Under the pieces are notes generated by a model that was not told the DNA's origin, did no database searches, and saw only the letters and a list, made by a program, of their open reading frames with translations. Positions 5,925 through 63,720 of a stretch of DNA of 64,000 bases are shown here, in pieces. The position numbers and the translations under genes were made by a program. The DNA comes from Nymphaea colorata (lineage: Eukaryota; Streptophyta; Magnoliopsida; Nymphaeales; Nymphaeaceae): assembly GCF_008831285.2 (NCBI RefSeq), contig NC_045151.1:10964571-11028570 (forward strand), in the 5' to 3' direction. The number at the start of each line of letters is the position of its first letter. Positions within the stretch are counted from its first letter, which is position 1.

Positions 5925-5969
5925 ATGTGGTTGTTAAGGGCAATAAAGGTTGTCGGATTCGCAAGGTAG
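5925..5969 (+). promoter_or_regulatory. Possible upstream ORF in the SAC3A leader
   Basis: If the acceptor at 5920 is used, the first ATG in the exon (5925) opens a 14-codon frame (MWLLRAIKVVGFAR) that stops at 5967-5969. This is 25 bp before the main ATG at 5995 and in a different frame. It could lower translation from the main start. It is irrelevant if the true start lies in an upstream exon. Confidence 0.3.
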
Positions 5970-5994
5970 ACCAACTAAGTCACAAGTCAGACAC

Positions 5995-12517: not shown

Positions 12518-15500
12518 TGTGTGTGTGTGTGTGTGTGCGTGTGTGTATCAAAACAATATTCCTTTATAAGATTGTGCAAAACATGCCATACGATGTTTTT
12601 GATTTTTTTTCATTCTTCAGCAACTTGCAGTGCTCTCTCAATCTTTCTACAATATCAAATCTCAAAAAAAGCCCTACAAGACGCTCAAAAAGTAGGTGGG
12701 AGCCCCTTTCAGAGGAAAAACTAGTAGAAAAGCTTGCACAAGCAAATCATGACCAAAAGAAAGCTGTCTGGAATGGTTTTAAGGAAAGGGAGGCATTGGT
12801 AATCTTTTGGCTACTACTTCCCCCCATACTTGTATTTTATGCTACTTGTAACTGGATATTAAATGAATAGGCAGTCCGGTGCATGTAATTCTGTTTTATG
12901 CATTACATCATGTAGGTCCTTGTCAAACTTATTGCTTTTTCAGAAACCTTGTTGCTACTGTTGACAGTATGGTCTCAGCTCAGCTAAATTTCTAAAATCT
13001 CATGAATTTATCATGAGATGTTGAGAAAATAACATTAAAGGTAAAATATTGCAAGACACTGAGAGAACAGGAAATCATAGATCAACAGGCAAATAATATC
13101 ACCGAAGTTCGATTTTGTTTGCTTTTAGAAATAGCTTTCCCCATTTTTGCATTTCTTTTCAAATTTTCTGAGTCTTTCTAATGTGTGAGATCTTGCTAGG
13201 ATTTATTATAAGACCATTGCTGTCCAACATTTTCCTGCCTGAGATATAGCCAATGCCAACATTTGTGGCTATTGTTACTAGCGAATGATCTAGCTGGTGT
13301 TTTTTTCCTCATCCCCCTCTTGTTTAATTTGGCTGCAGGCTCCTACAGCTAAATATGATCCCAGGGAGAATGCTTGGGGTGGTACAAAGTCCTCAACTGA
13401 GCAGCAAAGCCTTCAACAGAAAAGCTTACGAAGGCCAGAAAAGAAGCAACGTGTCTTTGAAAATACAAACTCTGCTGAGAATGGGGATAATTCAAGTGAT
13501 AGTGACAAGGAGTCTGGTTTAACTGCGTATTACTCAGGTGCTGTTGCTTTGGCAAATTCACCTGAGGAAAAGAAGCGGCGTGAAAATCGCTTCAAGCGCT
13601 TTGAAGCTGTTCATGAACATGGGCATGTAAACAAGCAATATAAGCCGAAAGCTATTGGGGCTGGAAATTCTATTAGCAGAAGGGCTAGTGCCCTTTTGCT
13701 TGCCAAAGGTCATGAAGCTAGTTGTAGCAGGGCAGTGGAGGATTTTGATTGGGATGCACTCACTGTGAAAGGGACCTGCCAGGAGATTGAGAAACGCTAC
13801 TTGCGTCTTACTTCTGCACCTGATCCTGCCACTGTAATTGCTTGAAGCTCAAGATTCACTATTTCTTTTGGTGTCCTTAAGTTACTTTGAGTATTTTATT
13901 AGGCCTATGCACACAATAATGTAGTTCTGCAGGCAATTCGCATTTTGCATTAGATGTGAGTCTAACATGGTTGTTTTTCTGTCTTTGAAGGTAAGGCCTG
14001 AAGAGGTGCTAGTGAAAGCTCTTGAAATGGTTCAAAGCTCTCAAAAAAATTATCTATACAAGTGCGATCAATTGAAATCCATCCGTCAGGATCTCACTGT
14101 GCAGAGAATACGAAATGAGCTAACTGTAAAGGTGTGAAATGGATGGTGTGTTGTGGTGAAATGGATGGTGTGTTGTGGATCTTCCTGTTAGATTTGGATC
14201 AAAGTTCTTTCCTTGGTTCTCTTTCCTTTTCAAGCCTACTATGTTTCTTAAAGTTTTAGGTTATTCATGTTGTGAATGTGATTTAATTTTGGGTTTATTC
14301 TTTGTTCTTACTAATAGTGTTTGGACTAAGCTGGTTCTTGAAATTGCAAAGGCTTTTCCCTTTTTGGGTTTTTGTCCTCTTCTGCTTGTGCCTAACAGCA
14401 ATATTTCTTTGTCAGGTGTATGAGACTCATGCACGATTAGCACTTGAAGCTGGTGATCTGCCTGAGTTTAATCAGGTTGGAACCTTATTGACCTCACCTG
14501 GACTCTGTTGTTTTTTCCATGTTCAACGTTTTATGGTTGTGCATTATACAAAGTTACAAACACAAAAGGAATCACAAATTGTTCCTCTTTCCATGGGAAG
14601 AAAATTAGTGGAACTGATTCAGGATGCATGATAGTCAATGGTTTACCAATGATATTCAGTAAAGAATACTGGAGCACCAAAAGATTTTAGGAAGAAGCAG
14701 AATTGCGAAGTTTATTGGTTATCAAATGTCTCAATAGACAGGCCAAACTTGCCATTGGCTTTTTGTAGTTATATGGGAACAACCAATACTTTAACAGGCA
14801 TTTCATCTGGAATAACAATTTCCGACTTGAGGTGTCACTCCTATGTGGTTCTTAGAACATTGATCCAAGCTATACCTTTAGGCTTTAGTTACAATAGTCA
14901 CATTAGCATAGAAATGCAGAACATAATGCTCTGTTTAAGCTGTGAGGAGACAAATTCCCTATGTTTTTTATATTGGATGGACTTCATAGACCTTTGTGCC
15001 ACATGGGCTTCAGCCTAGCCTGCTTGCTACGTTTGAGTTTATTTTGTAAGAAGTAATGTGAATGTGGGTTTCTTTATCTTGCTCGTAACATTGGCAAAAG
15101 ATTAGAAGCTACTTGATCGGGGAAAGCTTTCTTTATTTATAAAAGCTATGAAATTGGGCTAATGAATTGGGTTGGAATATTGCTACCAAAAATGCAGTGT
15201 GATCTCTCCCGTCTTGATCTTCTTGATTCTTCATCACAAGCTTAGAACTATTTTAGGCTAGGCAAACATAAAATATGTGGTCCGTTATCCTTAAAAGTAT
15301 CTTTTCTTGGTTGTAGACTTGTAGTATAACCAACAATCAAGGGTTAGAAATTCCTGGCCAAGGGTTCACATGTGGATTCTTGGATCTACAAAGGAAAAAA
15401 AAAACTCTAATATGCTTGGTACTAACTGTGAGACCCTAGTAACAAATACAATGTATACCCTGATCACAATTTTAGCCTTCATTTTTCATCTTTCTTGTGC

Positions 15501-28600: not shown

Positions 28601-31260
28601 AAAATATTATTTATATTTATTTTCCTTATATTTTTTACGTTTCCTTCTGGCTGGTGCTCACTTTTATTCCTATTCTCCTTGACATTGTCCTCCCTCTTAA
28701 TTTGTTATTTCTTATTATCAATTTCTTGTTTGTCCTTCCCATTCTGTTTTCTTTTTCTCTTTTGCCATTTGTATGCCTCCAACCTTAATCAGCGTCAATT
28801 GATTTCTACCATAGACATGTCTACATTGCTTTCTGTTGTTTTCTATTCACTCTTGTGTCCTGTTACAAAACATCAGTTTTGTTTCTGCTATAAGTTCTTC
28901 AATCATCCTTGTTTGCCCAGTTCTTACTTCCTCCCACTTCCCTAACACACAACAAAAATCTGAGATGTAACATCTGAAATCTGATCAGACATCTAAAACT
29001 CTGATCAAATCAGACATCTTCAATCAGATAGTTTGTATATTTGAGTGTATAACAGCTCTCTTCTTTACCCTAATTTTTCTGTACAATGTAAAAATTTGAA
29101 AACTAATTAAAAAATGTTGTCCCTGTCAAAGAGCACTTTCACGCACCAGAAAGTCACCTGCACCAAGGACTTCTTTGACACAAAATGAAAGTTGATTGCC
29201 TGATTGAGACTCAAAGAATTGATTAAGGTGAGAAAGCACTGAAAATTCATCTAATGGAAGAAAATAGCCACAACATAAAAAGAAAGCATCAAATTCCATA
29301 TTTACCTGGAACGGGAGAGATGGCAATGGTTCTGAATCCCAGAAAAGATCCTCCTTTTTCCCATGTAAGTACATTCGTGCATCTAATTGTGCTTTATCCC
29401 CTCTAGAATAAATGAAGTTCAGCATATATTGGCGACAGAAATAATCTCTAAATTTGTCTAAAGAATGTTGTAGGTGGCGTCTCCAGTCTTTAAGTTCTAC
29501 AGCTTTACTAGGAATAGGACCAGTGCTCTCCGAAGATAAACTTTCATTACCCGTAAGTTCTTTCTCTTCGCTGCAAATTTTTGAGAGAGCCATAGGTAAT
29601 AATTCGTCTAAAACAGCATATGCATTTCCTAGAAGAGCAAGCTGCTGAGAATCAGTTTCTGCCTTGAACTTGGTAGAGCCTTTATGCTCCATGAGGGTAT
29701 CCTCTTCAGAAAGACCTGGTAGACTCTTCATTAACCCATCTATGTACATATCAAACAGCTGAGAGATCCTACTTAAAATGGTCCCACCAAAATGCAGAAT
29801 GACATCTGATGTTAAATGATCAACAATATCCTGTGAACAAAATTAGCATAGAAAATCTGTCAAGCAACCATAAGATAGAGTAGGTGACATGATAAATAAT
29901 GAAAAATTACTATTAAGAGTGGCAAAAAACTGTACAATTGTCTTATATATATTAAGCATACGTAATATTTCTCTCAATATACATGATTTCAAAAAGTGTA
30001 TGTTAGTGCCACAAGTATTAATTCAAGCATCATTAATCACTTCAAAAATCTGAATCTGTTATTATGCAGAAACCATTATTTCAGAATGTGTGACCAAACG
30101 AGCCGTCCTGCAGCTAGCCTCGACAAGTGAAGGGTACTTTAATATTTCTTTCTTAACAGTCAAACAAAGAAGCAAGCTGCTATTGATTGCTCAAGTAAAC
30201 GTAACTAAAGGGAAATTGGCAGACAAAAGGGAGTTGCCTCACAGTATTAAAAATATGGTATAAATGAGCATATAAGGTAATTTACAATTCGACCCTATAC
30301 AGTATACATACACTGAGGAGGTTGCCATCACATGTTGATACATACTGGGTGCCGGTGCAGCTCTTAACTGCCAAATTCAAGGGTCATCAATAATGCGCAA
30401 AGGCAGTCAAATGGCCCCACTTCAAAGCTGTCCACATTTAGGTGCCTACTGGGCCTTAGTGGGGTCTAAGTATAATGAGTGTATAGGTTTGTCCAGAAAA
30501 CCAGCCATATTCACAGGTTCAGTTTTGTCTCGGCAATAAAGCGGCTTCAATCTCTTCTCCCTTAAAATATTGACAAAAAGTTATTGCTTATTTTGTGCCA
30601 TAAAATTCTCAGACTTCTTTTATTTAATGAATACTTTGTCTGTGAGCACACACACACATTCCATAAGCTTGCAACCAAATTTCATGAAAATGTCACATGG
30701 AAACAGGTGAAAAGCCAAGTACTTGTGTCGGTACGTGGGTATGGTGACACAGGTACATGGGATATGGCTGGGTATGATTGTATTTTGAAACTGAAAAACG
30801 TTTTCAAACTTGACTTTTGCTTTAATTTTGATTTTATGTGGATTACCCGTAGTTCTCAAAAATGGTCTGCCTATACCCGCACTACTGTACCGGTACCATA
30901 CCCGTATCTGCACCCATGTAACATAGTGTCACATCCATACTTTTAGTCATGTCCTTACTCTTCTCCCGGACCTACACAATACCGCCTGTAAACTTGGAGA
31001 CTAAGCCACATGAACTTGCCAAGAAAATTGTGACACCTAGATCGATATGATTTTAGTGCAAGTGTGGCAACCAACAATTTGCCTTCCTTTATTATGAATT
31101 ATTGATGAAATGATAACTTGTGATTTGTTAATTCTTTTTGTTTGTGTATATGTGTGTGTGTGTGCATGTGCGGTGTATATGTGTGGCAACCAACAATTTG
31201 CTTTTCTTTATTTTGAATCATTGATAAATGATAACTTGTGATTTGTTAATTCTTTTTGTT

Positions 31261-31296
<36 letters not shown>

Positions 31297-34200
31297 TGTG
31301 CTGTGTATATGTGAAGGTGAATTGATGTGTTTTGATCAAATTTGATTTTGCTACAAATGTTTTGACAACGCAGAGCATAGTGAAACAAATAAATACTTCA
31401 AGAAATATGCCTTCAAGTGGTCGATGGGTTACGTATCGACATAATCATAAGAGAAAATCAAGAGAAGTTGTGGATACTGTATTGGACAAATCAATTTTCG
31501 AAATCATGTGTCAAGTTATTCAAATCAACATACCTTTGGCTAAAGTCCTCAAATTGGTTGACAATAAAGGTAGGTTTGCCATAGGGTACTTCTATGAAAC
31601 TATCTTTCTTTGATAAGTCAACCTTGAAAACAACAAGGAATTGACTTGAGCAATACCTGTTAAAGAGAACCTCAAGGGAAAAAGAAGTTGTACATGCCCG
31701 TATGGAGGATTATAAATAAGAGGTAGATCAGGCAACTTCATAATCTCTTTCATGCAGTAGTGTATTACTTAAATCTTGCATTAAGATATTTCCTAACATT
31801 TAAAATTGATAGAAATTGAAGAGTTTCTCGGGCTACATTGGTGTTAGTCAATGAGCTTGAGACACAAGACCTTATTCATCATGAGATGGAAATATATGAT
31901 AATTTTCAAGGTGATGCAGGAAAAAATGCAACCACTTGGAACACTAATCCATCTAGATACTACACTCAAAAGTCAACGTATCTTTTAATTGTAATTTAGT
32001 AATTTCATTTGTTTAATCTTCTAGTGTCGTACTTGTGTTTAGATATGCGGCTGATTAGGTATCAGAGTGACTATCCAAACTTTAAAACTTTGCAATTAAA
32101 ATCCTCAGTTAGACATGCACTGCACGTTGATGCAAAACAATATTAGAATATTTTCCAATAAAAGGAGAAATATACTAGAATATAAACTATCGAATAACCT
32201 TGTCTATGTTCAATATAATATGTAATCAAGGCAACAGTAATAAGCTGATGTAGACTTGTTTTATAGGTCGACCCATTATTCCATCAATATACACTTGTTT
32301 TGTAAAATATATTAACAAATTTCTCTTATTTCTTTTACACGATTAGGAAAAACTTCAACAAGAAAGCATAGAGCACAAGCTGATCCTATCAGCTTGGAAC
32401 ACTTTGATGCACTAGTTTTATGGGTTGAGGAAGAACCAGCCACCATATTCTAAAAGGAAGTTCTTGAGTAGTTTAACATCAAAGGGGTAGAACATGTCGA
32501 TGATGAGGAACTCATATACATCAAGAAGGATGCTGAATGCAACCGATGATAAGAATGACGACGAATATGATGAATTATCTATTTTCATTTATTATTTGTA
32601 TTGATTAAATTCATTTTGTGATGTATAAGAATTTAAACTTATTTTTTGATGTGTAAGGACATTATATTATGTTAAATTGATGAATGTTCATTGGCAAATT
32701 CATGTGTAACATAAAAGAGCAAATTTCTTGATTTTCCTCTTATTTCGTGTAATCATTCCTTTTAAAAAAATTTCAAAAACAAATTTACAATTTTTTATGT
32801 TATGTTATCTAATTAACTATTGGCCCGGTCTATACATGTTACATTACACATTTTAGAACATGGGTTTCAATATGCGCCTATGTTTTTATTTGGCTAAACC
32901 ATTTCATTGAGATGTTTAAGAGCATGATTTTTTATGTAATATTCCTTTTTCTTCAATACAAGTTATAAATTCCTTTGAGATATTCTACTTTTGAATCACT
33001 CCTAAAAATCTTAATGGAGGTATTAGATTGATTTTTATCATATTCTAAAGGGTTTGAAATGAGCAGAAACATCAAATAAAGTAAATTTAACCTATGTTAT
33101 CAAAGTTGCTAGGCGCAGTCTGGGCAACAGGATGTGCCCAGCGCTTGGGCACAACTAGGCCCACTTAGGCAACCATTTAACTAATTATGGCTGTACGCAC
33201 TACATACATTCCATACTATATAATATATAATATTGTCATACATAACTTAACATATATATTCAAAAGTGTGGAAAACAACTATTATTTATATTAAATTAGT
33301 AACTGTTAAGTATTAAGTTATGTGATATGACTAATAGTGATATAGTCATCATATAACAATAATGCACAACAGACAATATTATACAATTTATATTATCTGT
33401 ATATTGAAAGCAAACTAAAGTTTATAGCATTGATATTCGAGAAACTGAAAATTAATACAAAGTTCCTATACTCAAATATTCATTAAATAACCATTTCTAC
33501 ATTGAAGGAAGAGTGGAAGGAAGACCATCCATTCTGCTTCCACAACTTAAAAATGTGCACTGCACTTGTCTCCGACACTACTTAATCCTTCTTAAAGAGT
33601 CTTTAAGAACCCCACTGAGTCATTGAGTGTCATTTGACTTCTATGGTCTAGGTGCAGACACGCCTAGGTGCAATTTGGCATGACCCTAGGCTCACCAACA
33701 CATTGCATCACCTAAGTGATGGAGTTAGGCGATGTAGGTGAAGTAGCACCTAGGTGTTGCCTAGGCACATGCCTAGGTGATGCCTCAAGTTCAACAACAT
33801 AGAATCTAATATATGTAATAAAACCATGAATAAACACAACATAATAAGAGAGACCACATTTGGAGATGAAGGAGTGGGTTCCATGCTCCTAGAATCCAAA
33901 ATATCTTATTCAAAGGGAGATTTTGATATAAATTATAATTTATAAACATGCTATTTCCAGAAGATAGGGATTTCATTTTTCTCATGATACAATAGAGAGG
34001 GCCTTTATAAGAGAGAAGAGATAGTCGTTGGCCCACTGACTAGAAAGCCAACAGCTAACCCAACAACAAGTATCAGGGAGATATCAATAAATTACTGCTG
34101 TATAATGCACAACAAATTCCAAAAGAGGACAAGGATAAACCCTTCAGCAAAACCCTTAAACCATCTGACACAAGGTTCCCCAAAAAACCCAAAAGTTCAG

Positions 34201-37200
34201 AGAAAGGTGTGTTGGTGCATTTACAAAGAGGTCCATAACATGCCTAACATTCCAAATACTACAACTATTGGGTTAAGAAATATTGTTCCAATTGCTGCTC
34301 CAGCAATATTAGGTGAATTTTACCCTTCCACACTAAAATCATCAAATCTCTCTGTCCCATTTGATTGGGTAAGAGAAATCACCACGAAGTACTAACCTTT
34401 CATCCTTTTCATCAAAATAGATGGGCACCAAAAGCGAAACCACTTGCCTCGGATTAGCCATAAACTGATCAATAACAACACCAGATAATGGCCATCAGGC
34501 CATGGAAAGGTTCATCTACGTCACTCAGTTGCAAAATTGTGGGTCAAAAGGAAATCATCATAGAAAGCTATTTGTAAAAAAAGGTCATGGACCCAGCAAA
34601 CATGTCATGTTATTTCCTTTATCGCCTCATAGGCACTCCATACTATTTTCATGATAACAACTAACTTTGACGTCCTTAGTTCCTTACTGTGATTTCAGCT
34701 CTTATACAGTTAATTCATGAAATAAAAAGTAACAACATATCTATTGATGAGACGTTATTATTCTCAACTAAGAAAAATAAAACTTAGAAACAATTTTGAA
34801 ATCTATTTTTATTTCTAGTGCTCATAGAAGTTGGTCTAAATGCCAAAAAAGGGATAAGCTGCAACACAATGGGTGAAGAATTAGTAGTAAGATGTTTTGT
34901 CTTACTTGAACAACAGACATAAACTGCTTTCCACTGCTAGTAAGCATAGAACACGCATCAGCAGAATACGAGGACAAATACCGAGTTGATGAAATCACAA
35001 TCTCATCATTTGCCAGCTGGTCAACCAACTTTCTTGCACGCCGAAAATTCATCTCTAAGATCTCGTCCACATATGGCCGTAAAAGCATAAAAAGCAACTG
35101 AGAAAATGCCAGTCCTTGTTCTTCCAACATTGCACAGTGACTAAGACTGGCTTTCACACAAACAGCAACAGCACGTAAAGCAGAGGCGCTCTCCGATGAA
35201 GGTGCATTTTCCTTCATCAGCTTAACAAGGGATTCTAGTTCACACTCAATCCATTGCTCAAGTCTACCGGTATATATCGCTGTGTTGCCAAATATTGATG
35301 AAGATTCTCTTGCTGCAGACAAGATAGTTGAAAATACATACTTTGACAGAGTTGCTGAGTTTGTTTCTGGGTATATTACACACAATGGTAGAAAATTCTC
35401 AATGTTCTTCTGAAGGCGAGATCTGTATGATTTCAATAATAAATTATGTGCAGATGGACCATTCCCAAGTTTGAGAAGCCTCATTAGAGCACTTTTCAGT
35501 TCCAAAACACCAACTGATGGCCGCTCTGCGACCTCAATAAGCTGCTCCACAAGCATTGCCTTCCGTTTCAAAAATGCTGATTTATAAGTAGAAACCTCCT
35601 CAGAGGTATTATCCCCAGAATCCAGTAAATCAGGATTGTTCTTCTCCTCTTCCTCAATGGCTAATAGAGCTTCTTCCATTTTATGCTCTGCCAATAAAAC
35701 ATCCACTGATTCCAGAAAAGCAGCTTTTGGATCACCTATACAATTAGGTATTGAGTCAAACTCATGGATATTATTTTCCTTGTGCTCCACTGGCTCGGGT
35801 TTATTCAACTTCCACACCTCAAGCTCTCGGCAAACACCGGTCATCAGATCCTGCACAAGTATGCCTTGGGCAGAGACATGCTTCTGCAGCTCAATCAATT
35901 CTTGCTCAAGCTCAATAACCTCTTCTGTTATTCTTCAAGATGAAAGAAATAACACGAGCAAAGTCAGAGTGCTTCAGCTAATTCTAGATCTAAACAATGA
36001 AAAGCATCCATTTTATGCTCACAGATACAATTTCACATAGGGATACATGGTACAGGAAGTGCTTCATATCAGATATGGATACCACAGCACATGCACACAC
36101 GCACACACAAAACAAATAAAGTAGAAAATACACATGGTCCATTGTGAATGATACATTACATTTTCCAGAGCAGCAAAATCACATCAATGCAAAAACCACA
36201 AGGCTAAAGAAATTGCAAGTCCCCAAGAGAATAAAATTCATTAGTAATCAGAGAAGGAGATTGCAGATAGTACACAATAACAATTCTGTTAAAGCAGATG
36301 TCACCATATGATTTCTCTCTCAATATATTTATCACTTATATAATTACACTCAGTTGTTTGCCCTAGATTTTTATGTACAGTGCATAATATGCAATAGGTT
36401 ACATTACTTAACTTTAAAAGATTTACCTGTATTGTTCGCTACAGTACATTAAGTGATTAAACTTTAAAGCCAGCATAGTATGATATGGGCCTGTCAGAAA
36501 AAACAGGGCAACAGAACATTATTCTTTTGTTTTTGGGGATGAAAATCCTCATATAACTGACTCCTACACACTATTAGGAGTTGTGCGAGGGAACTTTTGC
36601 TGCTTTCAGAAGGAAGACATCTAATTTGTGGTGTGCGGTGAACAAATTGCACCAAAGAAAGAGGGCTTTCACTGATGATCAGGAGCTGATATATACTGGG
36701 GAGGATATTGAGTCTGAAGGAGATGCAGAAGCTGAAGATGATGAATGAACATTTTATTTTTCATCTGTGAGAAACAAGTTTGTTAGATGACTGAAAGCCC
36801 ATGAACAATAATTTGACTGGATTACTCACTGTATGCACTCCGCATATAAAGAAATCCACATGCAAGCTTCAAGTTGCTCCCTTTACATAGTTTCAGAATG
36901 GCAAAACCATTTGAGAGATTAGGTGGATTTTCCAGAGCTTATGTTATGTTCTTAAAGGACATTTGAGAATGATCAAGGAGGGTAGACTTGAAGGGAGCAA
37001 GCACATCAGCATCCTAGGAAACCGCAGATGAAGTTGCACACGATATACCTGGAACATGTTCGGTAAGAACTAATTGGTATGCACACTGAATCTTACTGGA
37101 ACAGGGTCAAAAACAGAGGATTAAGGATGAAGGGGTCGAATCTATGGTACGTGTTGAATTGGAAGAGTTTATGTTTCTAGGTGGCTCTTTGTAATATTAA

Positions 37201-40200
37201 AGATTTACAAGATCTCTTTAATATTTTCTTTATTTCTGTTTGATGTAATCTCTAAATCTCCTTTCTACCCTAATCTCTTTATGATGGAGATTAAGGTTAG
37301 TGAATAATTAAGTTTTCTTTCTCCAAGTCTTACGGCTGCTACTCTCTCTCTCCACATCTCACGACCTACCATCTCCAAACCTCACGGCTGCAACATGGTA
37401 TCAGAGTCATCGTGACTGGCGACGTGAAGAAAGCAGTGGCTGGGTCGTGAATCAGGCTGGTGACATGAAGAAAACTGCCGTCGGCTTCTCCTCCTCAGGC
37501 TATCTCTTTCACCATCTCCTCCTTCTCCCTCTTCTTCTCCTGCTCCACACGTTTAGTTCAAGTTGACCGTTTTCCAGCAACTGAACCGTGTGGAGGAGTC
37601 TATTCACGCTATGAAATCTGCGTGAATAGACTCCAGCTGTGGGTCTTTAAACATATATATCTTATCGTAGCTGGGTGGGAATTTATGTTGAATGTTTCTT
37701 GCTGTTGCTATTCATGATTAGTGGAAAATAATATCTGGTACAACAAAGTTAGATGCATAAATAGATAAGTTGTTGTTTGCGAAAGACAGTGCAAGCAGTG
37801 TGGAATTTTTTTTTGGTCGTTGGATTGCTGATACGAGCCTACCTAGAACTCGTACTTCCCATGTTGGTACCTCCGCCGAAGGCGCCCTTTCTTATTGTGA
37901 GGCTAACTTTTGTTCTTATGAGATTTGCGGAAAACAGGTGAGAGTGACTACGGGAGCATGTCAAATGCTTAGGGAGGTTAACTTCCCTAGTTCCTCCTTG
38001 GCGTTTTCGGGAGATGACAGACTTTTTCCTTGTGAGGTTAATCCCTCAAATATAGCGTGGAGCGGATGGGAGCAAAGTGAAGGGCGCGTGCAAGTCCTTG
38101 TGAGGCTAAGGGAGCAAGGCTTATGGAAGACCTAGGTGATCTTGACCTAGGAGACCTAGACCCACCCGGTCTAGGTGAGGAAGACCTAGGTGCACCTAGC
38201 CTAGATGAGGAAGACCGGGACTCACCTAGTCCAGAAGGGGAAGACCTAGGCACGTTTGGCCTAAATGAAGGTGGGCTCGGCATGGCGAGGAGAACACATT
38301 GGGCTCGAGCCCATTTCACGGATCGGATTGGCGAAGCTCAGGCGGACCTGGGCGAGGTGGGGCCTTTGGCCCAAATCAGATTAGAACAATTACTTAGAAT
38401 GATTTGATTCATTTGCTTTTGTACCATTTTCTTGTTTGATTCGGTTTGTTTTACGTCTCATCTCGAGACAGTGTTTTGAACCGGTTTGGCACTTGTATAT
38501 AAGCCAAAACTGAGACGTTTTATTCATTCTTGCTTAATGAAATTGGAGTTTTTCTCTTTCCTCCATGCGTGGAGAGTTCTTGGTGCTTAGGGCGTGGCTT
38601 CCTAGGAAGCACTACACTGAAATACTCACCAAGCTGTGAGATTATTGGAGGTCTTCCATCCATTAATGGCTGCCGGTAGCCATTAACGAAGAAGATGAAC
38701 ATCGTACTCGAACCAAGGAATCCTTGGATAGGCAGCCGTGCCTTCAACTTGATCACGAAGGAGTTGAAAGGCGACTGTACTAGACGGTGTTGAAGAAGGT
38801 GCCGCCTGTGATTCTGGCCCATCGTCTTCAACCTTGACCGCTGGCGAGATCTCAGCCATAACCAAGCTTTCCGACTTCCTAACGCTTGGTGGATGAGCTC
38901 TCAGATGATCCTTACTCACGACATCAACGCCCCCTCGAGCCTTGCATTCGAGCTTGCTTGTCCAACTGGGATTGAAGAGGCGGTATCAAGTGAAGAAGAA
39001 GATTCCATTGTAGGTAGATCGAGGAGAAGAAGGGAGCATCCGATTAATCCCAAGATCAATCCGCCTAAATTCGGGACTTTCCTCGAGGTATTTACGGTGG
39101 GGTATGGCGTTCCATGATCAACCCTAAGATCTGAGTCACGAAGCCAATTCGTGGAGCGAGGAAGGAGAAGAAGAAAGGAAACCGCGAAGGGGAAGAGGCG
39201 AAAACGAGTGGAGACGAAAAGACACGGTTCTCGGTTTCTGAAAATAGCTTCAGAACACACTTCCGATCAGAAAAGTGATTTCCGGAGATCTACTGGGAGT
39301 TTTGAGGCGTTCTATGGCTCGTTGGAAAGCTCTCGTCATCCCCTACAACCTACTAAAATTTCAGGCAGATCGGACCACGGGAAGGTAGTCACATCCACGA
39401 CGGGCCGCTTGCAGAGGCTGTTTCCGACGATTCCCTTGGAGTATTCAGGCGAGCCATATACCATTGGATTCGTAATTAAAAGATCTACAACATATCCAAA
39501 AATCAAGGTATTTGGAGCTGATTTGACCGTCGAATCATCGTCTGCAAGTTTTGGAAGCATGTTGGCCTGTTCGCCGGTTTTCATGGTGTAACTCAGATTT
39601 CCGGCCAGATCCGGCGACCTCCGGCCAGTTCCGACAATTGGGTGACTAATTCCCATCCTACCCCTGCTATGCACTACATTTACTTGGATTAATAATTATT
39701 AGCATGGGTAATTTCGTCCAAGAAGGTATCGGAAACCCTAGCGCATAAGGGTATTTAAAAAGGCAACCCTTGGCGCCGTCAACACTTTCCAAATATTTTG
39801 CCGATGCTTCCGAAAGGTGAGATCCGCAGCTGATCTCAGGAGGCCAGGTGGCACCATGTGGAGGAGGGCGCCAGCAGCTAGGCCGACAATTTTGGGAGGC
39901 ACCGCAAGAAGCCAAGAGGGCGCGCCAAGTGTCCTTCCGTTCCAAAAAGGAAGGCGCATCTTGCTCAGTCGTCCCTATTCTTTTGGAAAGAAGATCTCCC
40001 GCGCTAGGAGATTCATTGCATCTGGACGACCACCAAAAAGGAAGGAGCTAGGTGGCAGCTGGACGCGAGGACAAGTGGAAGAGGGCAGCTCGTTCCCACT
40101 TTGGCGAGATCTCCTGTCCTATTTTTGCCTCAACGAAATAGAAAAGGGCTTGACTTGCGGCTAGGTGCATTGTACCTAGATGCCTTTCACCTAAGGCAAG

Positions 40201-43200
40201 AATCTCGCCAACTCCTTGGGGATCCTTCGGGGATCTTGATCATACACGTGGCGGGGGGACAGCCTGCTTCCAACCTTGCGAGATCCCCTTCCCTATTTCC
40301 TCTCCAGCGAAATAGGAAAGGGCTCGATTCGTGAGGCTGGATTAATTGAATCGGGACATCATCCGCGAAAGGCAACAAATCAGTGAGATCCACTCCAACA
40401 ATCTGGTAAGATCCACCACGATCTTAGGAGGGTGACTCACCTTCACGGTAGGGAAGTTTCTAGCCCTAGCTCGTGTGAGGAGAAGGACGGCCAGCCTTGG
40501 AGATCTCGAGGAGCCGCGGTGAGCAATGAGGGAGTTGATCCACCGGAGTTCGATCAACATTCCTCGCCGGAATCTCAACCTTCACCGGAAAAGGAGGAAG
40601 ACACGCGTGTGTTGGCGCTTCCAACACTTGCTTCCCCCAATCGACTTGTCTTACTCTTGGGGTGTACCATCGATCCGGTGAAGTGCATTGTCTCTATGAC
40701 TCTTCTTTCGAGTTTGATTTGAAATTCATTGTTTCTATTACTTCCTTGGAGATTCGGCTAATATACTTGTCCGTGAGATCGTGGGGAGAGACGGTGCCGG
40801 AGCCCTTGTTATCTTGGAGGACTCCTCCTTCAACCCGAGAGGCACTAAGTGGAGAGAAGAAACTGCATCCGCCAAGCGACATTGGCGATTGCTTCCCCCT
40901 ACATACTACAATTCAACTAGGGGTCAATTCTCGATCGGGTGACTAGATCCACACATCCTTCTCTCATTTGTTAATTCGAATAGAACTTGATCTCCCTTGT
41001 TGGTTGGAGCCGATTTTACAAAATTGGGTTTGGGTTTGGAGGAAAACCCTGGTTTGTAGGCCTTCTTTCTTGCCTCTCTTCGTTTGAGTTGCTCCTCAAT
41101 TGTTTTTGCCAAAGAAGCAAAACATCTCCTCAACTCGGTTGGAGGATCCCTGAGCAACTCGATTTGGATATCTTCATCGAGACCGCCTATGAAATGGGCT
41201 ATCTTGGACTCTTCTGGACGGTTCTTTACCATACTAGACAACCTCTCAAACTTGCCTTGGTAATCTTGGACTGAAGATGTTTGTTTGAGATTTCACAATT
41301 CAATCTCATGGTTGACATACGATGTTTCTCCAAACCACAATAAAAGCTCTTCTTTGAAGAGGTCCCAAGTAGCATTCAGATAATCCTCCTCCCAAAAGCA
41401 ATACCATTGAATAGCATCCTCTTCTAAGTACATCTTTGCCAATCGGACTTTGTGCTCCTCTACTATGTTTTGGCAAATAAAGTATTGCTCGGCCTTGTAG
41501 ACCCACTCTTTTGGCCTTTTCCCATTGAATTTTGGAAAGTCCATTTTTTGCATAGGGAGCCTTGGTTCATCATTATTTCGGCCTCTTCGTCCATGGTTGA
41601 AACCAGCATGGTGCTGGCCTCTCCCTTGGCCTTGCATCATCTCAATCTCCCTATCTAACTCATCTTCAAATTCTCCAAAAGTCATAGATTGCATTGACCG
41701 ATTCTCATTGTTCCTTCTTGGTGCCTCATGGTGCGGACCCATATTTTGATAAAGCTCATCGTGGAGTTGCCTTTGATGATTTTGCCTTTGTTCAATGAAA
41801 GCTCTCCTTATCTCCTCTGGTGTGGGTCGCTCACCCTCTCGTCTGGCCCTTTTCCCCACGTGTAATGTTGCCCCGGGTTGGTTTGTCCCATTGGTAAGTT
41901 GAGGATGGACAATTTGTCGGTGGATAGGGGGTGGAATAGGCTCATTTTAGGGAACATGAGTGTGAGCTCTAGGTGGCTGCTCTATCCCTTGGCCCCTTAG
42001 GCTAGCTCGCTTAGCATCAACCAAGAATGCCTCACTCACCACTCCTATGAGATCATTCCTACGGTAATAGGAAGAAGTGTGAGAATGGGGTGGGACTCTC
42101 CTTTGCTCTAGGGTGTTCAACCGGCCGTCTATATTGGCAATGGTCTGGTTTACACCAGCTAGTTGGCTAAGGATTAGATCTAGCTTCGAGTTGGTGCCCG
42201 AGGACTCCCCTCTCTCAACAATATGAGTCTCTTCTACCACGACTTGCTCACCCTCCACCACATGGGTTTCAGGTTCTATGGTCTTAGCTTTACGCGGAGG
42301 CATGCTTCTCAACTCAAGCAAATGTGGACCAAAACAAAAACTGCCCAAAAATTGCACTTGAACTACTGTAAATCTGAAGCAAACTGAGATATAAAATCTG
42401 TCAAGGCTGCCGGAAAACCGGGTGCAAACTGTCCACCGACTACTAAAAAAACCACGTCCAAAAACTGTCAAAATTCTACCCTATCAAGTCCTTTTGCTGG
42501 CCGAATTTAGCAAGCTGAATTCCGGTCACCTCCAATGATCTCCAAGCAGCAAGAACAGCAGCAAAATGTCCTCCCACGGCTCTGATACCAACTGGTAGGG
42601 TCTGCCCGAATGCGGCCAAGAAATCCTCAAGATGTCGTCGAAGACCCTCTCCAAGATCTAGGAGGAGGTTGCCGTTCAATGGGTTTAAAAGTTAATTACA
42701 CAGTTAGGCTCCCGCCGGACAGTCACCCCGGCTCAAAGTAGGTCAAGAAAGTACAAGAAGGGCTTCCCCAATCCCGGCTTGATCCTACTACAAAAGGACT
42801 AGAATAGGTGCGAGGCTTAATACAAATCGCAACGATACAATATATCACTCTCATCACTCAACATTCATCAAACCATTCAATCCACCCTGTCATACAATCC
42901 CTATTCGGAACAAACCACGCCCTTGCCCTAGGTGGTCCACAACCCGGGAATCGTGTCCTTGGCAAGGTGCCTTGGAGGGATCCCAGTCGGTTGCTATTGC
43001 CAATGGCTGGATTAGAAAGCAAAGAACTCCCTTCCCACGGATCTATAGGGTGATCCGATGTTACCTCCCAAGGCCTCGCTTGGGGACTCCTCGAGCTTCA
43101 CCAAAGGTAATAACCGGCAGCAATAGATGGCTGCCTCCTTCGGTATTTCCAGCAACTTCCACCTTAGGCCACGCCAATTCTCCTCCTTGGACGGAATAAG

Positions 43201-46200
43201 AACAAGAGAGATCAAGTTCTATTCGAATTAACAAATGAGAGAAGGATGTGTGGATCTAGTCACCCGATCGAGAATTGACCCCTAGTTGAATTGTAGTATG
43301 TAGGGAGAAGCAATCGCCAATGTCGCTTGGCGGATGCGGTTTCTTCTCTCCACTTAGTGCCTCTCGGGTTGAAGGAGGAGTCCTCCAAGATAACAAGGGC
43401 TCCGGCACCTTCTCTCCCCACGATCTCACGGACAAGTATATGAGCCGAATCTCCAAGGAAGTAATAGAAACAATGAATTTCAAATCAAACTCGAAAGAAG
43501 AGTCATAAAGACAATGCACTTCACCGGATCGATGGTACACCCCAAGAGTAAGACAAGTCGATTGGGGGAAGCAAGTGTTGGAAGCGCCAACACACGCGTG
43601 TCTTCCTCCTTTTCCGGTGAAGGTTGAGATTCCGGCGAGGAATGTTGATCGAACTCCTGTGGATCAACTCCCTCATTGCTCACCGCGGCTCCTCGAGATC
43701 TCCAAGGCTGGCCGTCCTTCTCCTCACACGAGCTAGGGCTAGAAACTTCCCTACCGTGAAGGTGAGTCACCCTCCTAAGATCGTGGTGGATCTTACCAGA
43801 TTGCTGGAGTGGATCTCCAAGGATCTCACTGATTTGTTGCCTTTCGCGGATGATGTCCCGATTCAATTAATCCACCCTTTCCTATTTCGCTGGAGAGGAA
43901 ATAGGGAAGGGGATCTCGCAAGGTTGGAAGCAGGCTGTCCCCCGCCACGTGTATGATCAAGATCCCCGAAGGATCCCCAAGGAGTTGGCGAGATTCTTGC
44001 CTTAGGTGAAAGGCATCTAGGTACAATGCACCTAGCCGCAAGTCAAGCCCTTTTCTATTTCGTTGAGGCGAAAATAGGAAAGGAGATCTCGCCAAAGTGG
44101 GAACGAGCTGCCCTCTTCCACTTGTCCTCGCGTCCAGCTGCCACCTAGCTCCTTCCTTTTTGGTGGCCGTCCAGATGCAATGAATGTCCTAGCGCGGGAG
44201 ATCTTCTTTCCAAAAGAATAGGGACGGCTGAGCAAGATGCGCCTTCCTTTTTGGAACGGAAGGACACTTGGCGCGCCCTCTTGGCTTCTTGCGGCGCCTC
44301 CCAAAATTGTCGGCCTAGCTGCTGGCGCCCTCCTCCACATGGTGCCACCTGGCCTCCCGAGATCAGCTGCGGATCTCACCTTTCGAAAGCATCGGCAAAA
44401 TATTTGGAAAGTGTTGACGGCGCCAAGAGTTGCCTTTTTAAATACCCTTATGCGCTAGGGTTTCCGATACCTTCTTGGACGAAATTACCCATGCTAATAA
44501 TTATTAATCCAAGTAAATGTAGTGCATAGCAGGGGTAGGATGGGAATTAGTCACCCAATTGTCGGAACTGGCCGGAGGTCGCCGGATCTGGCCGGAATGG
44601 TGGCCGGAAATCTGAGTTACACCATGAAAACCGGCGAACAGGCCAACATGCTTCCAAAACTTGCAGACGATGATTCGACGGTCAAATCAGCTCCAAATAC
44701 CTTGATTTTTGGATATGTTGTAGATCTTTTAATTACGAATCCAATGGTATATGGCTCGCCTGAATACTCCAAGGGAATCGTCGGAAACAGCCTCTGCAAG
44801 CGGCGGATCTGCGGCTGCTGCGCCTGAGCGGCGGCGGCGGAAACAGTGAACTTCCGTCGTGGATGTGACTACCTTCCCGTGGTCCGATCTGCCTGAAATT
44901 TTAGTAGGTTGTAGGGGATGACGAGAGCTTTCCAACGAGCCATAGAACGCCTCAAAACTCCCAGTAGATCTCCGGAAATCACTTTCTGATCGGAAGTGTG
45001 TTCTGAAGCTATTTTCAGAAACCGAGAACCGTGTCTTTTCGTCTCCACTCGTTTTCGCCTCTTCCCCTTCGCGGTTTCCTTTCTTCTCCTTCCTCGCTCC
45101 ACGAATTGGCTTCGTGACTCAGATCTTAGGGTTGATCATGGAACGCCATACCCCACCGTAAATACCTCGAGGAAAGTCCCGAATTTAGGCGGATTGATCT
45201 TGGGATTAATCGGATGCTCCCTTCTTCTCCTCGATCTACCTACAATGGAATCTTCTTCTTCACTTGATACCGCCTCTTCAATCCCAGTTGGACAAGCAAG
45301 CTCGAATGCAAGGCTCGAGGGGGCGTTGATGTCGTGAGTAAGGATCATCCGAGAGCTCATCCACCAAGCGTTAGGAAGTCGGAAAGCTTGGTTATGGCTG
45401 AGATCTCGCCGGCGGTCAAGGTTGAAGACGATGGGCCAGAATCACAGGCGGCACCTTCTTCAACACCGTCTAGTACAGTCGCCTTTCAACTCCTTTGTGA
45501 TCAAGTTGAAGGCACGGCTACCTATCCAAGGATTCCTTGGTTCGAGTACGATGTTCATCTTCTTCGTTAATGGCTACCGGCAGCCATTAATGGATGGAAG
45601 ACCTCCAATAATCTCACAGCTTGGTGAGTATTTCAGTGTAGTGCTTCCTAGGAAGCCACGCCCTAAGCACCAAGAACTCTCCACGCATGGAGGAAAGAGA
45701 AAAACTCCAATTTCATTAAGCAAGAATGAATAAAACGTCTCAGTTTTGGCTTATATACAAGTGCCAAACCGGTTCAAAGCACTGTCTCGAGATGAGACGT
45801 AAAACAAACCGAATCAAACAAGAAAATGGTACAAAAGCAAATGAATCAAATCATTCTAAGTAATTGTTCTAATCTGATTTGGGCCAAAGGCCCCACCTCG
45901 CCCAGGTCCGCCTGAGCTTCGCCAATCCGATCCGTGAAATGGGCTCGAGCCCAATGTGTTCTCCTCGCCATGCCGAGCCCACCTTCATTTAGGCCAAACG
46001 TGCCTAGGTCTTCCCCTTCTGGACTAGGTGAGTCCCGGTCTTCCTCATCTAGGCTAGGTGCACCTAGGTCTTCCTCACCTAGACCGGGTGGGTCTAGGTC
46101 TCCTAGGTCAAGATCACCTAGGTCTTCCATAAGCCTTGCTCCCTTAGCCTCACAAGGACTTGCACGCGCCCTTCACTTTGCTCTCATCCGCTCCACGCTA

Positions 46201-49200
46201 TATTTGAGGGATTAACCTCACAAGGAAAAAGTCCGTCATCTCCCGAAAACGCAAAGGAGGAACTTGGGAAGTTAACCTCCCTAAGCATTTGACCCACTCC
46301 CGTAGTCGCTCCCACCTGTTTTCCGCAAATCTCATAAAAACAAAAGTTAGCCTCACAATAAGAAAGGGCGCCTTCGGCGGAAGTACCAACGTGGGAAGTA
46401 CGAGTTCTAGGTAGGCTCGTATCCATATTTCTCTAATGTCACCTCTCACCCTAGTACTAACTCCAACTACTCTCTTCCACTTCCTATTCCTCCATTTCCA
46501 TTGGAGTCTACTTCTATACCATTGTCCTCCTCGCTTGAAGTGCCACATTTTAGGATCCACCACTTGTCTATTCTCATCATCATGTCTTTGAACATGGACC
46601 TTCCACATCTCCTCCTGAGGTAAGTATTACTGATTCACTTGAGGCTCCCATGTCTCTGCAGGATAATGCTCCAGATATTCCAATCCCAGATGATGATCTC
46701 CCTATTGCCCTCCGAAAAGGTAAAAGACAGTGCACCGTGCATCCTATTTCTAAGTTTGTCACAGTAGAGAGACTGTGCAAGGGTATGCAAGAGTTTATCT
46801 CTGTCTCTTATGCACCATTACTGTTCCCATAAATCATCAGCAAGCCTTTTTAGATCCTAAGTAGAGACAGGCCATGCAGGAAAGATCGAGGCACTGATAT
46901 CTAGAGGCACATGGAACCTTGTCTCTCACCCTTCTGATGCAGATATTGTTGGCTGCAAATGGGTCTTCACAATCAACTATCAATCTGACGACACCATTGA
47001 GAGATATAAAGCCCGCTTAGTAGCAAAGGGGTATACTCAGACTTGTGGGGTCGACTTCTTTGAGACTTTTCTCCAGTTGTTAGACTCGGTACTATTCAAT
47101 TGGTCGTCGCTGTGGCGGTACATTATGATTGGCAACCTAGTTATGAAAGACAAGGACAGTGTGGGAAAGTATGTAAATTAAGAAAATAAGCATATGGACC
47201 CAAGCAGAGTCCTAGGGCATGGTTTCAGAAATTATATGAAGTTGTATCGATATTTGGACTCCAACGATCAGTTCATTCTCTCTTTATTAAGAGAAGTTCA
47301 AAAGGTATAGTGGTAATGGTAATATATGTTGATGACATTATATTAATTGGCAGTTGTGAAAAAGAAATTATTGAAACAAAGGAGTACCTACAAAAACACT
47401 TTGTTACCAAGGATCTTGATCCTCTTAGGTACTTCTTAGGAATAGAAGTTGCGAGGAGTAGAGAAGGCCTTGTGCAAAAGGAAATATGTTATTGATTTGC
47501 TTCATGAGACAAGGATGCTTGGCGCTAAACCTGCAAATATTCCTATGAATCCTCGATTCTATTTATATGATGAGGATTCTAAACAGGTAGACAACAAATC
47601 ATATTGTTCATTGATTGGAAAACTCCTTTATGTTACTGTGACACACCCTGATATATCTATTGTTGTGGGAAAGCTAAGCCAATTTATGGAAACCAAGAAA
47701 GGTTCATTGGGAAGTTGCACTGATGATTCTCAAATGCCTCAAATCTGCTCCAGGGAAAGGACTATCATTTCAGAAAAGTGATTCTCTTGACGTGATGGCC
47801 TGCACAGATGCTTGTTATGCTAGATCAGTTGAGGATAGAAAATCCACCACTGGATTCTGCATTTTTGTTGGAAGGAACCTGATAACTTGGAGAAGTAAAA
47901 AACCAACCTGAGGTGGCCACTGGCCAGGTCGAGTGCAGAATCAGAGTACAGAGCTATAACTCAAACTACTGCGAGATGATTTGTGCAAAGCTGATTCTTG
48001 CTAGCTTGGGAGTTCAAATCTCTCTTTCAACGATGATGCTATGTAACAACAAAGCTGTTACCTACATTGCCAATAATCGTCTTCCATGAAAGGAAAAAAC
48101 ATATTGAGATAGATTTTCATTACATCAGAGATATGGTGCAAGTTGGAAATATATTTCTACTACTCATGTCCCTAGCGAAGATCAAGTTGCTGATGTATTT
48201 ACCAAGCCCTTACCGATCACCAGATTTACACAATATTGTGACAAATTGAGTATGTTTGATATATATGCTCCAGCTTGAAGGGGAGTGTCGTTAGTAAAGA
48301 AATAAAACAACATGGGTAGTATCTTGCAATTTTATTAAATAGGGAGGTTCACTTATTATTTCTTACACATTTGATGTAAATGTTATTTCCCTAAATCTCA
48401 ATTTAAGTGAGAAGAAGGGATAATCTAAGATATGGTTTTCGCCTCTCTCCTCTCTCTATCGTGTTCAACAGAAACAAATACGTCAAATTTATAAAAGAAA
48501 AGGAAACAACCCCTGTTTTGATATGTGTTTCCCCATCCATCTACTTCTTCATCGTTGTTGTACTAAAAAGGTATTGGATTTGACAGATTCTTCCTTTTTT
48601 CCAATTCCAGCATTAAATAAATTTGAGATTCAAAAGAAAAGATAAAACATATTAAAAATAACGAAAGAATGAAAAGGAAAAGAAGGAGGTGCTTAGATCT
48701 CCAGATCCATGCATTTCACATTGCTATGATCTGTTGTAGCTTGTCAATGGAACATGATTACATAGACAAAGAAGTGGCTATTTGCAGCCTGGCTCTTTAC
48801 ATATCAATTATCTTATAACATAGCCAAAAGTTTTTCATAATATGATCAACACCATCCTCATTATCCATAGGTGTGACATACACCCATCAAGAAAGGAAAA
48901 AGGAAGAATTTAACAAGCATATGTCCAAAACTTTAACCTGCTACCCATGTGATATTATCATATTGTAATGTTGTCCAAAGAAACACTAGATAATTAGCAG
49001 ATTACCTTAGAAAAGCTGTGTATTTTGCACGTTTATTTCCACATAGATTATCTACTGCATCCTTCAACTCCAAAAGCTCTGTGCACAATTTCCTAATTCC
49101 CTAAAGAAAATATAAATAAATATTACATTTTTCAATAATAGGATGAATGCCAGAAGAAACAAAATTTAATTATCAATTAAATAAAAACTACATGTGCTAA

Positions 49201-61381: not shown

Positions 61382-61639
61382 TAGGCTTTGTGTGAGAGGT
61401 TCTGTCCGAAGAGCAGCATGTTGGAATTTTTTCCACTAACTGGGTGTTGATCATCATTTATTCAAGTCACCTAACATCCTTATTGGCTGATCATCATTCA
61501 TTCAGTCCAGGAGTCATGTGTTCCCAATAATATAGAACATTGCTACTATCCTTTTAAGGAGATTCCCCTTATATGCTACTGAATATCAAACAACCTGTTG
61601 TTCTTAGGAAAATATATTAAGCATCATCCTTTTTTGCTT

Positions 61640-63720
61640 TTTATAGTATTTCTTACCTTTTGTATAATGGAAGGAAAGAAATATCTCTTACTTCAGCATT
61701 TCTTCAAGTTTATTCTTACAAATTACGTTATATGGGTTTAATTATGAAACCTCATATCGAAAGAAAAAGTTTATGGGGCTACATAGATGAATGTGAAATA
61801 GAACTAATGTTAAGTCATACTAAGATTATGGATGAAAAGAGTAAAGAATTGGAAGGAGCAGAAAAAGATAAGGATGTCAAACATTTTGAGAAAAAGTGGA
61901 AGGAATGGAAGACAAATCACCATAAAGTAATGCCTTGGCTGCTTAACAACATTGATATTTTTGTTAATGCTCAATTGGCCAAGTTTGATTTGGTTAATCA
62001 AGCATGAGATTTTTTATAAGATACACATAGCACGAAGTACATGACTCATAAATGAAACATTCAAGTCAAAATTTCAAAATCACAGCAAAGGTGATAGAAT
62101 TATAAAAGAATATTATGCTGAGTTTTCTCAATTATGGGAAGAGCTCTCCATATTTGAGCAAAAATTTAGAGATTCTTATGACATTCTGTTAAGGGAATAA
62201 CAAATCCAAAGGATAAATTTTACGCTTTTCATATGGGAATAAGATCAGATTTTCATATTTTTACAACCTCCCTCTTGCATATATCTACTGTCCCCACTAT
62301 GAATGAAATTTTAATTGAATTGATTATGGAAGAAAACAGGCTGTTGCACTTCAAAAAGACAAATGACAATGTTTTAGCAGTTTTCAAGTTAGGAAATCAT
62401 GTGAAGACATATGAACACCTCATTTTGGAAAAAACTATGAATAACCAAGCAAGAAAATTATATGTCATGAACCACAACACATTAAACCTAGGTGTCCCAA
62501 ATGAAGGCAGTTTGAAAGAAAAGCTGTATTTTGCAAAAAATCCGCATAGAAAAGAAGAGAAGTCAGTTGAAAATATGTCAATTGATCAATTTGCTCACAC
62601 ATTACAAACTTATTTGAAGGGAAGCTTGCCATCAATTGGAGCCATAATTCCAACTGTTGAAGCACTTTCAATTTGCCTTTTGGATTTCAGAGCTTCTTTG
62701 TATATGACTCCACACGAAAATGTCTTTCAAACTCTAGAACTGCCCATTTTTTTATTTTGTTTCAACTACTGATGAGACTTCTTTAAAAATTAAGAATATT
62801 GGAGACTTTGAAAAACAAAACCAAAATGACGAAAGTATTAAAATCCCAAATGTGCATGCATGCCAAACTGAATTTAAATATTTTGTCGGTATCTCAAATT
62901 GCTGATCACAAGTGTGGGATTACTTTCTTACGAGAAAAATGTTTTGTATAGAATCAAACATCAGAGAAGATGATTGAGGAAGGAATTAGAAGATGACATT
63001 TCTATTGTATGGAATTTTTGGATTTAGCAAGTTTTTTTTTGTTTTTTTGGTAATACTGTAAAGAAAATGACATTGTTGTTTGGCATCAAAGGCTGAGACA
63101 TACTAGTCTTGAAAAAATGTTGTATGTACAATTTTTTAAAAAGAATATGTAATGAAAAATTTACATGTAATAAATGCATCTATGGAAATATGAAGTCCCT
63201 ACCATTTGGAGAGAGATTTTTTGTAAGCAAAGCATCCTTTGAACTTGTTCATTCTGATATGCCGGGTCCAGCTCTAGTGATATCCAAAGGTGGTTATTCT
63301 TATTATGATATATTTATTGATGATTATAATAGATATGTCTGGATCTACTTTCTTAGACATAAATATGAAGTCTTCTTAAATTTCAAAGTTTTTTAATCAT
63401 ATACTAGTTTCAAACAAATATTAAAACTCCAATAACTGATTCTAGTGAAGAATATGTTTCAAATCTATTTAAAAAGTTATTTAAAAGAAAATGGAATTGA
63501 ACATCAAAATTCTTGTCCAAAAATGCCACAAAAAATGGGATTTTAAAAAGAAAACAGCGGTACCTAAAATTTTTTGGGCTAAGACAGTTCTTACCTCAGT
63601 TTATCTTATAAACAAAATGCCATTCGAGGTTCTAAACAATAATACTCTATTCCAAACTCTTTATAACGTTGAACCTAATTATGATAGACTAAAAGTGTTT
63701 GGGCAAATGCTTTATCTTAA
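61640..63720 (+). pseudogene. Ty1/copia gag-pol remnant (gag, protease, integrase)
   Basis: Frames in copia order, broken by stops and shifts. Gag is at 61660-62007 and 62180-62580 (NHHKVMPWLLNNIDIFVNAQ; FHIFTTSLLHISTVPTMNEI). The protease site is near 62680-62720, reading LDFRASLYMTP where LD(S/T)GAS.HMTP is usual. The GAG-pre-integrase zinc finger is at 63079-63190 (WHQRLRHTSLEKM ... CNKCIYGNMKSLPF). The integrase core is at 63190-63396 (FELVHSDMPGP and YDIFIDDYNRYVWIYFLRHK with its two Asp residues) and 63491-63724 (KTVLTSVYLINKMPFEVLNN). The protease DSG motif is destroyed, so the copy is inactive. RT and RNase H would follow beyond the window. Confidence 0.75.

Follow-up and report, generated by a model that had tools for sequence, protein, structure and literature searches.

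EXO84C is encoded on the minus strand of the window analysed here, a 64,000-nucleotide stretch of the Nymphaea colorata genome (C14, positions 10964571–11028570; genomic matches were sought in the 407.8-Mb genome). A tblastn search with the N-terminus of Arabidopsis EXO84C placed exon 1 at 52307–52212, exon 2 at 49100–49005 and exon 3 at 35949–35812, and the open reading frame (ORF) of exon 3 matches Exo84_C (PF16528, E = 4e-12). Intron 2 (35933–49005, minus strand) spans 13.07 kb, with its donor (AAG/GTAATC) and acceptor (TTGAAG/AATAAC) read in the sequence, and contains the whole of the palindromic retrotransposon structure that is our subject. Exons 1 and 2 lie to the right of the palindrome and exon 3 to its left; together with two copia fragments, the palindrome takes up ~11.3 kb of the intron.

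Self-comparison of the window returned one large inverted repeat, pairing 37830–41001 with 43201–46423. We place the arms at 37829–40996 and 43206–46424, ~3.17 kb each, on either side of a 2.2-kb spacer. Global alignment of the arms (the left one taken up to 40994) gave 98.9% identity over 3146 aligned bases, which is far above the level of chance. The arms differ by 34 substitutions (25 transitions and 9 transversions) and seven indels of 3, 1, 49, 12, 1, 15 and 10 bp; the 49 bp were probably lost from the left arm, because at the site of the gap a family copy (L029), too, is longer by 49 bases. The outer end of each arm is the 5′ (unique 3′, U3) end of a gypsy long terminal repeat (LTR), and a minus-strand gag lies between the arms. 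A first-pass annotation had described a palindrome of ~3.2 kb within an intron of EXO84C, and both its size and its position in the gene hold.

Two gypsy parts and the joint between them

The palindrome is made of two gypsy parts, here assigned to elements X and Y. Element X is on the minus strand and retains a full-length 5′ LTR of 3.83 kb (42593–46424), the 43206–46424 portion of which forms the right arm. Next to this LTR are the untranslated leader and primer-binding site (PBS) at 42304–42592, with the PBS, TGGTATCAGAG, read in the sequence as its reverse complement at 42580–42590, followed by a gag fragment (41002–42303). The gag, read leftward from 42303, keeps a single frame that two stop codons interrupt, and its 3′ part is missing. 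Of its three ORF pieces, the innermost alone matches Retrotrans_gag (E = 2.7e-5), and genomic matches to 41100–41700, self excluded, have 67–94% identity. The border of the LTR was taken from genomic matches to query 42560–43200, which among the best 40 of 309 candidates scored often start at query positions 29–34, equivalent to ~42593. Because these LTR matches begin at this point, beside the PBS, the 613 bp from 42593 to 43205 belong to the LTR and not to gag or leader. The terminal U3 base of the X LTR deviates from the family, in which the LTR starts TGATACGAGCC (TGATAC), the T being either lost or changed. Element Y, on the plus strand, is represented by an LTR of this family from its start to 3.17 kb (37829–40996, the left arm), with its U3 end outward and its final ~613 bp missing.

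The family has the hallmarks of Ty3/gypsy, namely an LTR starting with TG, an adjoining PBS, a gag, and relatives with protease, reverse transcriptase (RT), RNase H and integrase in that order. A normal relative (L030) has LTR starts in the same direction at C2:24801035 and 24810208, between which the domains follow the gypsy order of gag, RVP_2, RVT_1, RT_RNaseH_2, Integrase_H2C2, rve (a match below its cut-off) and SH3_Tf2-1. A family census, in which the best 40 of 73 candidates were scored and the 61 matches listed were merged into 40 LTR starts, gives a lower bound. Among the matches listed, at least nine neighbouring pairs of LTR starts lie within 20 kb of each other; eight of these are direct and one, the window's own, is inverted.

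We compared the inner joint, at 40996–41001, with copies L029, L030 and L031 and with the right arm. On the minus strand, the family LTR reads AAGAACAAGAGAGATC around this point and the window reads CCAACCAACAAGGGAGATC, while the gag of relatives continues beyond a stretch like CCAACCAACAAG. The six bases AACAAG (minus strand) are common to gag and LTR at the joint, with one additional base that differs, and the Y LTR breaks off here with its last 613 bp missing. Integrase acts at LTR ends, and an autointegration joint must likewise use an LTR terminus. Integrase would therefore not be expected to make a joint 613 bp inside the LTR. The inverted pair with gypsy gag between its members, and an LTR joined to gag, had been correctly recognised in the first-pass annotation; its picture of two LTR copies facing each other across 2.2 kb of gag and leader needs amending, as the copies are unequal, 613 bp of the spacer are LTR, and the left LTR joins from its own interior.

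The outer joints and their copia flanks

Fragments of two different copia elements, which the first-pass annotation had not mentioned, flank the palindrome. To its left is the beginning of a plus-strand copia element, copia A. Its 5′ LTR of 245 bp (37152–37396) was delimited by genomic LTR-only copies matching query 12–257; a copy at C2:12.114 Mb has a 3′ LTR that is 90.8% identical to it (250 columns). The 5′ LTR is followed by a PBS, again TGGTATCAGAG, and leader (37397–37828), which is cut at the first base of the gypsy LTR. Among the 48 matches listed from the best 40 of 426 candidates scored, 18 other copies of copia A begin at the LTR start and extend as far as query 687–689 (37826–37828), reaching the left joint. 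We read two of these copies across the joint: both carry GTCGTTGGATTGC or a close variant there and continue with copia A sequence, agreeing with each other at 477 of 539 aligned positions, where the window instead has the start of the gypsy LTR. This copia A continuation was not found elsewhere in the window, which gave matches of only 16–17 bases.

On the right, the gypsy LTR abuts a second plus-strand element, copia B, of which a decayed pol (RVT_2) remains from the integrase/RT linker onward (46425–48285), cut at the gypsy LTR. The 185-bp 3′ LTR that follows (48286–48470) is supported by LTR-only matches at query 537–721 (e.g. C11:12772800), and the closest relatives of copia B, at C11, C5 and C2, have 80–88% identity. 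Copia B and a copia A copy are 66.3% identical over 2006 alignment columns, and the LTRs of copia A and B have no similarity beyond that of shuffled sequences (local score 20, equalled by 36% of 300 shuffles). A single copia element carrying the palindrome is therefore ruled out, its left and right parts being 66% alike with unrelated LTRs. In a relative of copia B at C11:12773400–12783600 (L066, L062), the DNA upstream of the homology holds other repeats, including a copia-like stretch on the opposite strand and an inverted repeat of ~0.9 kb.

No target-site duplication (TSD) flanks the gypsy ends: the adjoining 5-mer on the left is ATTGC, whereas the one on the right is CATAT or ATATT, according to how the altered terminal base is counted. 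The 5-bp TSD and the one target on both sides that a single insertion would show, normal or template-switched, are thus both missing. The left LTR also has no family polypurine tract upstream, although GAGGAGGGTGGGGT or a close variant precedes the 3′ LTRs in L039, L047 and L048. A normal element with its left half inverted is ruled out, as copia A and not this tract precedes the left LTR.

Origin of the inverted repeat

We consider it probable that two gypsy insertions in opposite orientation, Y in copia A and X in copia B, were fused by one deletion at a microhomology. Y (plus) and X (minus), members of one subfamily, would have inserted independently, both in the EXO84C intron. A single large deletion, repaired in the style of end joining, would then have linked the interior of the Y 5′ LTR to the X gag at the 6-bp microhomology. 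Lost with it would have been the remainder of Y and the 3′ part of copia A, any intervening DNA, the 5′ part of copia B and, from X, the 3′ end of gag together with pol and the 3′ LTR. Parts of two 5′ LTRs would have been left head to head, forming a 3.17-kb palindrome around a 2.2-kb spacer. The arms were probably evened out afterwards by gene conversion along their inner ~2.9 kb. Starting from the observed borders, orientation, microhomology, two copia halves, clustered differences and lack of a visible TSD, we infer the single deletion event, its repair pathway and the gene conversion. One deletion step would account for the loss of half of each of the four elements, as well as for the absence of a TSD, the U3 ends on the outside and the microhomology.

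Comparable fusions are known as recombinant complexes of LTR retrotransposons (Devos et al. 2002, as cited in PMC1950507; Sabot and Schulman 2007, PMC1950507). According to Sabot and Schulman, the lack of flanking TSDs marks recombination between two insertions, whereas a single template-switched insertion keeps its TSDs; their Table 1 counts 20 recombinant complexes against 2 template-switch cases in ~7 Mb of Triticeae sequence. Like those complexes (PMC1950507), the structure in the EXO84C intron would join two independent insertions after integration with loss of the intervening DNA, and it lacks a flanking TSD. Theirs, however, involve same-strand partners and recombination between LTRs, whereas here the partners are inverted and the 6-bp microhomology lies between an LTR interior and gag.

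The differences between the arms are clustered at the outer ends. Thirteen substitutions fall within the outer 241 bp (37829–38069 vs 46184–46424) and 21 within the remaining 2905, corresponding to 5.4% vs 0.7%, a ratio of 7.5 over the whole arm; inside the outermost 600 bp the counts are 13/241 vs 0/359. The binomial probability of this clustering is 6e-7, with a 241-bp border that was picked after viewing the data, and none of 20000 random placements gave 13 differences within any 241-bp stretch. When each arm was compared with 16 other LTR copies (32 comparisons), the outer/inner ratio ranged from 0.81 to 2.59, with C13_2878 the highest (2.33 and 2.59). Two direct LTR pairs used as controls have no outer excess (L030, 12/241 vs 22/452; C13, 14/221 vs 32/399). 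A third pair, on C10, gave 37/241 vs 19/399 (ratio 3.2), falling to 16/211 vs 19/399 (1.6) once its poorly aligned start, where 21 of the first 30 bases differ, was trimmed. At several outer sites both states occur among other family copies, and both arms also carry states present in 0–1 of the 16 copies.

We read this 7.5-fold outer excess as a sign that the inner ~2.9 kb was probably made uniform by later conversion between the arms, with the outermost 241 bp as a probable edge of the converted tract. A separate origin of the two outermost LTR parts appears likely, given the outer divergence of 5.4% against 0.7% elsewhere. At substitution rates of 6.5e-9 to 1.3e-8 per site per year, the outer part would date to 2.2–4.3 million years and the inner part to 0.3–0.6 million years.

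Several observations weigh against two insertions fused by a deletion. The arms are each other's closest relatives, at 98.9% identity, with the 16 other LTR copies compared at 81–92%. In the outer 241 bp, too, the arms are closest to each other, with 13 differences between them against at least 24 to each of the 16 copies; this is the main weakness, and it suggests one burst of activity, or partial conversion there as well. Two independent insertions so closely related and so near together would be a coincidence unless they stemmed from one burst and were later converted. The somewhat faster outer evolution seen in several family comparisons (ratios up to 2.59, and 3.2 or 1.6 for C10) weakens the case for conversion a little. 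In addition, the C11 relative of copia B did not reveal the right-hand empty site, its homology ending 94 bp short of the joint.

An origin by template switching during reverse transcription is possible but unlikely; a template switch had been offered in the first-pass annotation. Plus-strand strong-stop DNA would have jumped at AACAAG to the gag of a second molecule, and the resulting palindromic complementary DNA (cDNA) would have used its two U3 ends for a single integration. This would account for arms so nearly identical, for a U3 end at either border and for the microhomology where LTR meets gag, and template-switched LTR complexes have been reported in grasses (PMC1950507). Such a product should nevertheless be flanked by a 5-bp TSD, and none is seen. 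With two different copias as flanks, its target must already have been an exact junction of copia A and B, or the insertion must have been linked to a deletion, and the clustering of differences at the outer ends would be left unexplained.

Template switching during DNA repair, by microhomology-mediated break-induced replication (MMBIR) or synthesis-dependent strand annealing (SDSA), is more doubtful still. A break in copia A would have been repaired by copying 3.17 kb of the X LTR, from a shared TG to AACAAG. The copia A copies do have TG right after the joint, as the LTR does, and near-identical arms would arise without a second insertion. A copy that begins precisely at the first base of the LTR is unlikely without integrase, however, and a fresh copy should not be 5.4% divergent in its outer 241 bp.

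Autointegration of the cDNA of one element, also put forward in the first-pass annotation, does not survive: an inverted LTR beside gag superficially resembles an autointegration inversion, but the joint lies 613 bp inside the LTR, at a 6-bp microhomology, where a terminus is required, and there is no TSD. Both free ends are moreover U3 ends set in host DNA, in two different copias, whereas an autointegrated circle has spent its ends; we give this origin almost no weight. A false fold-back in the assembly is just as hard to credit, for although long inverted repeats are prone to misassembly, a fold-back would yield identical arms, and these differ at 34 positions and by seven indels of up to 49 bp, within flanks that differ from each other yet are internally consistent.

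Hairpin capacity and remaining features of the window

We treat the structure as a relic of recombination. The expected capacity of its transcript to fold into a long hairpin is supported: judged by the arm alignment, with no energy calculation, 3113 bases could pair, in 40 perfect runs of which 10 reach at least 100 and the longest has 404. The gag remnant is oriented like EXO84C, and the 5′ LTR of X points through gag into the inverted LTR. Transcription from the gene promoter or from the LTR of X might yield hairpin RNA as a by-product. Exact 21-mers of the arms occur in all 19 family loci compared, at 13 to 310 positions per locus, which indicates a potential at most. Some of these loci overlap or share an element; of the 28 LTR-start loci L034–L061, 11 that are mostly more divergent were outside the comparison.

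Elements of the kind normally silenced, but lying inside transcribed genes as this one does, are handled by IBM2/EDM2 in Arabidopsis; the present case is known from sequence alone. The precedent is Mu killer of maize, a rearranged inverted copy of MuDR that is reported to make small interfering RNAs (siRNAs) silencing its family (PMC10760457). As there, the EXO84C intron holds a truncated inverted duplication of a transposon with potential hairpin RNA, an inverted copy able to form long double-stranded RNA. Unlike Mu killer, the element here is an intronic LTR retrotransposon, recognised by its sequence. The same paper gives 76% as the share of predicted maize gene hairpins of one kind that are intronic.

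It is a rather long shot that the locus acts as a natural counterpart of Mu killer for an LTR retrotransposon, made by a simple deletion: EXO84C pre-mRNA or readthrough from the X LTR would yield a 3.1-kb hairpin, small RNAs from it would silence the gypsy family, and conversion would keep the arms alike. Deletions between nested retrotransposons can be a plain route to long inverted repeats within genes, and such repeats are raw material for possible hairpin-derived silencing loci. At this locus one could ask whether so large a hairpin inside an intron is diced or simply removed by splicing, and whether gene conversion takes place between the two arms.

A search of a plasmid collection gave no match, and scans of the window for transfer RNAs and Rfam families found none. 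Outside the intron, a further copia fragment lies on the plus strand at 61621–63393, with gag-like and integrase-like ORFs recognised by eye and no Pfam match at 0.001. To the left of EXO84C, plus-strand ORFs at 5947–6795 and 13294–13842 look exon-like by eye and may belong to one or more other genes, again with no Pfam match at 0.001. The window also contains two short direct duplications of ~125–150 bp, at 7090–7388 and 31062–31305.

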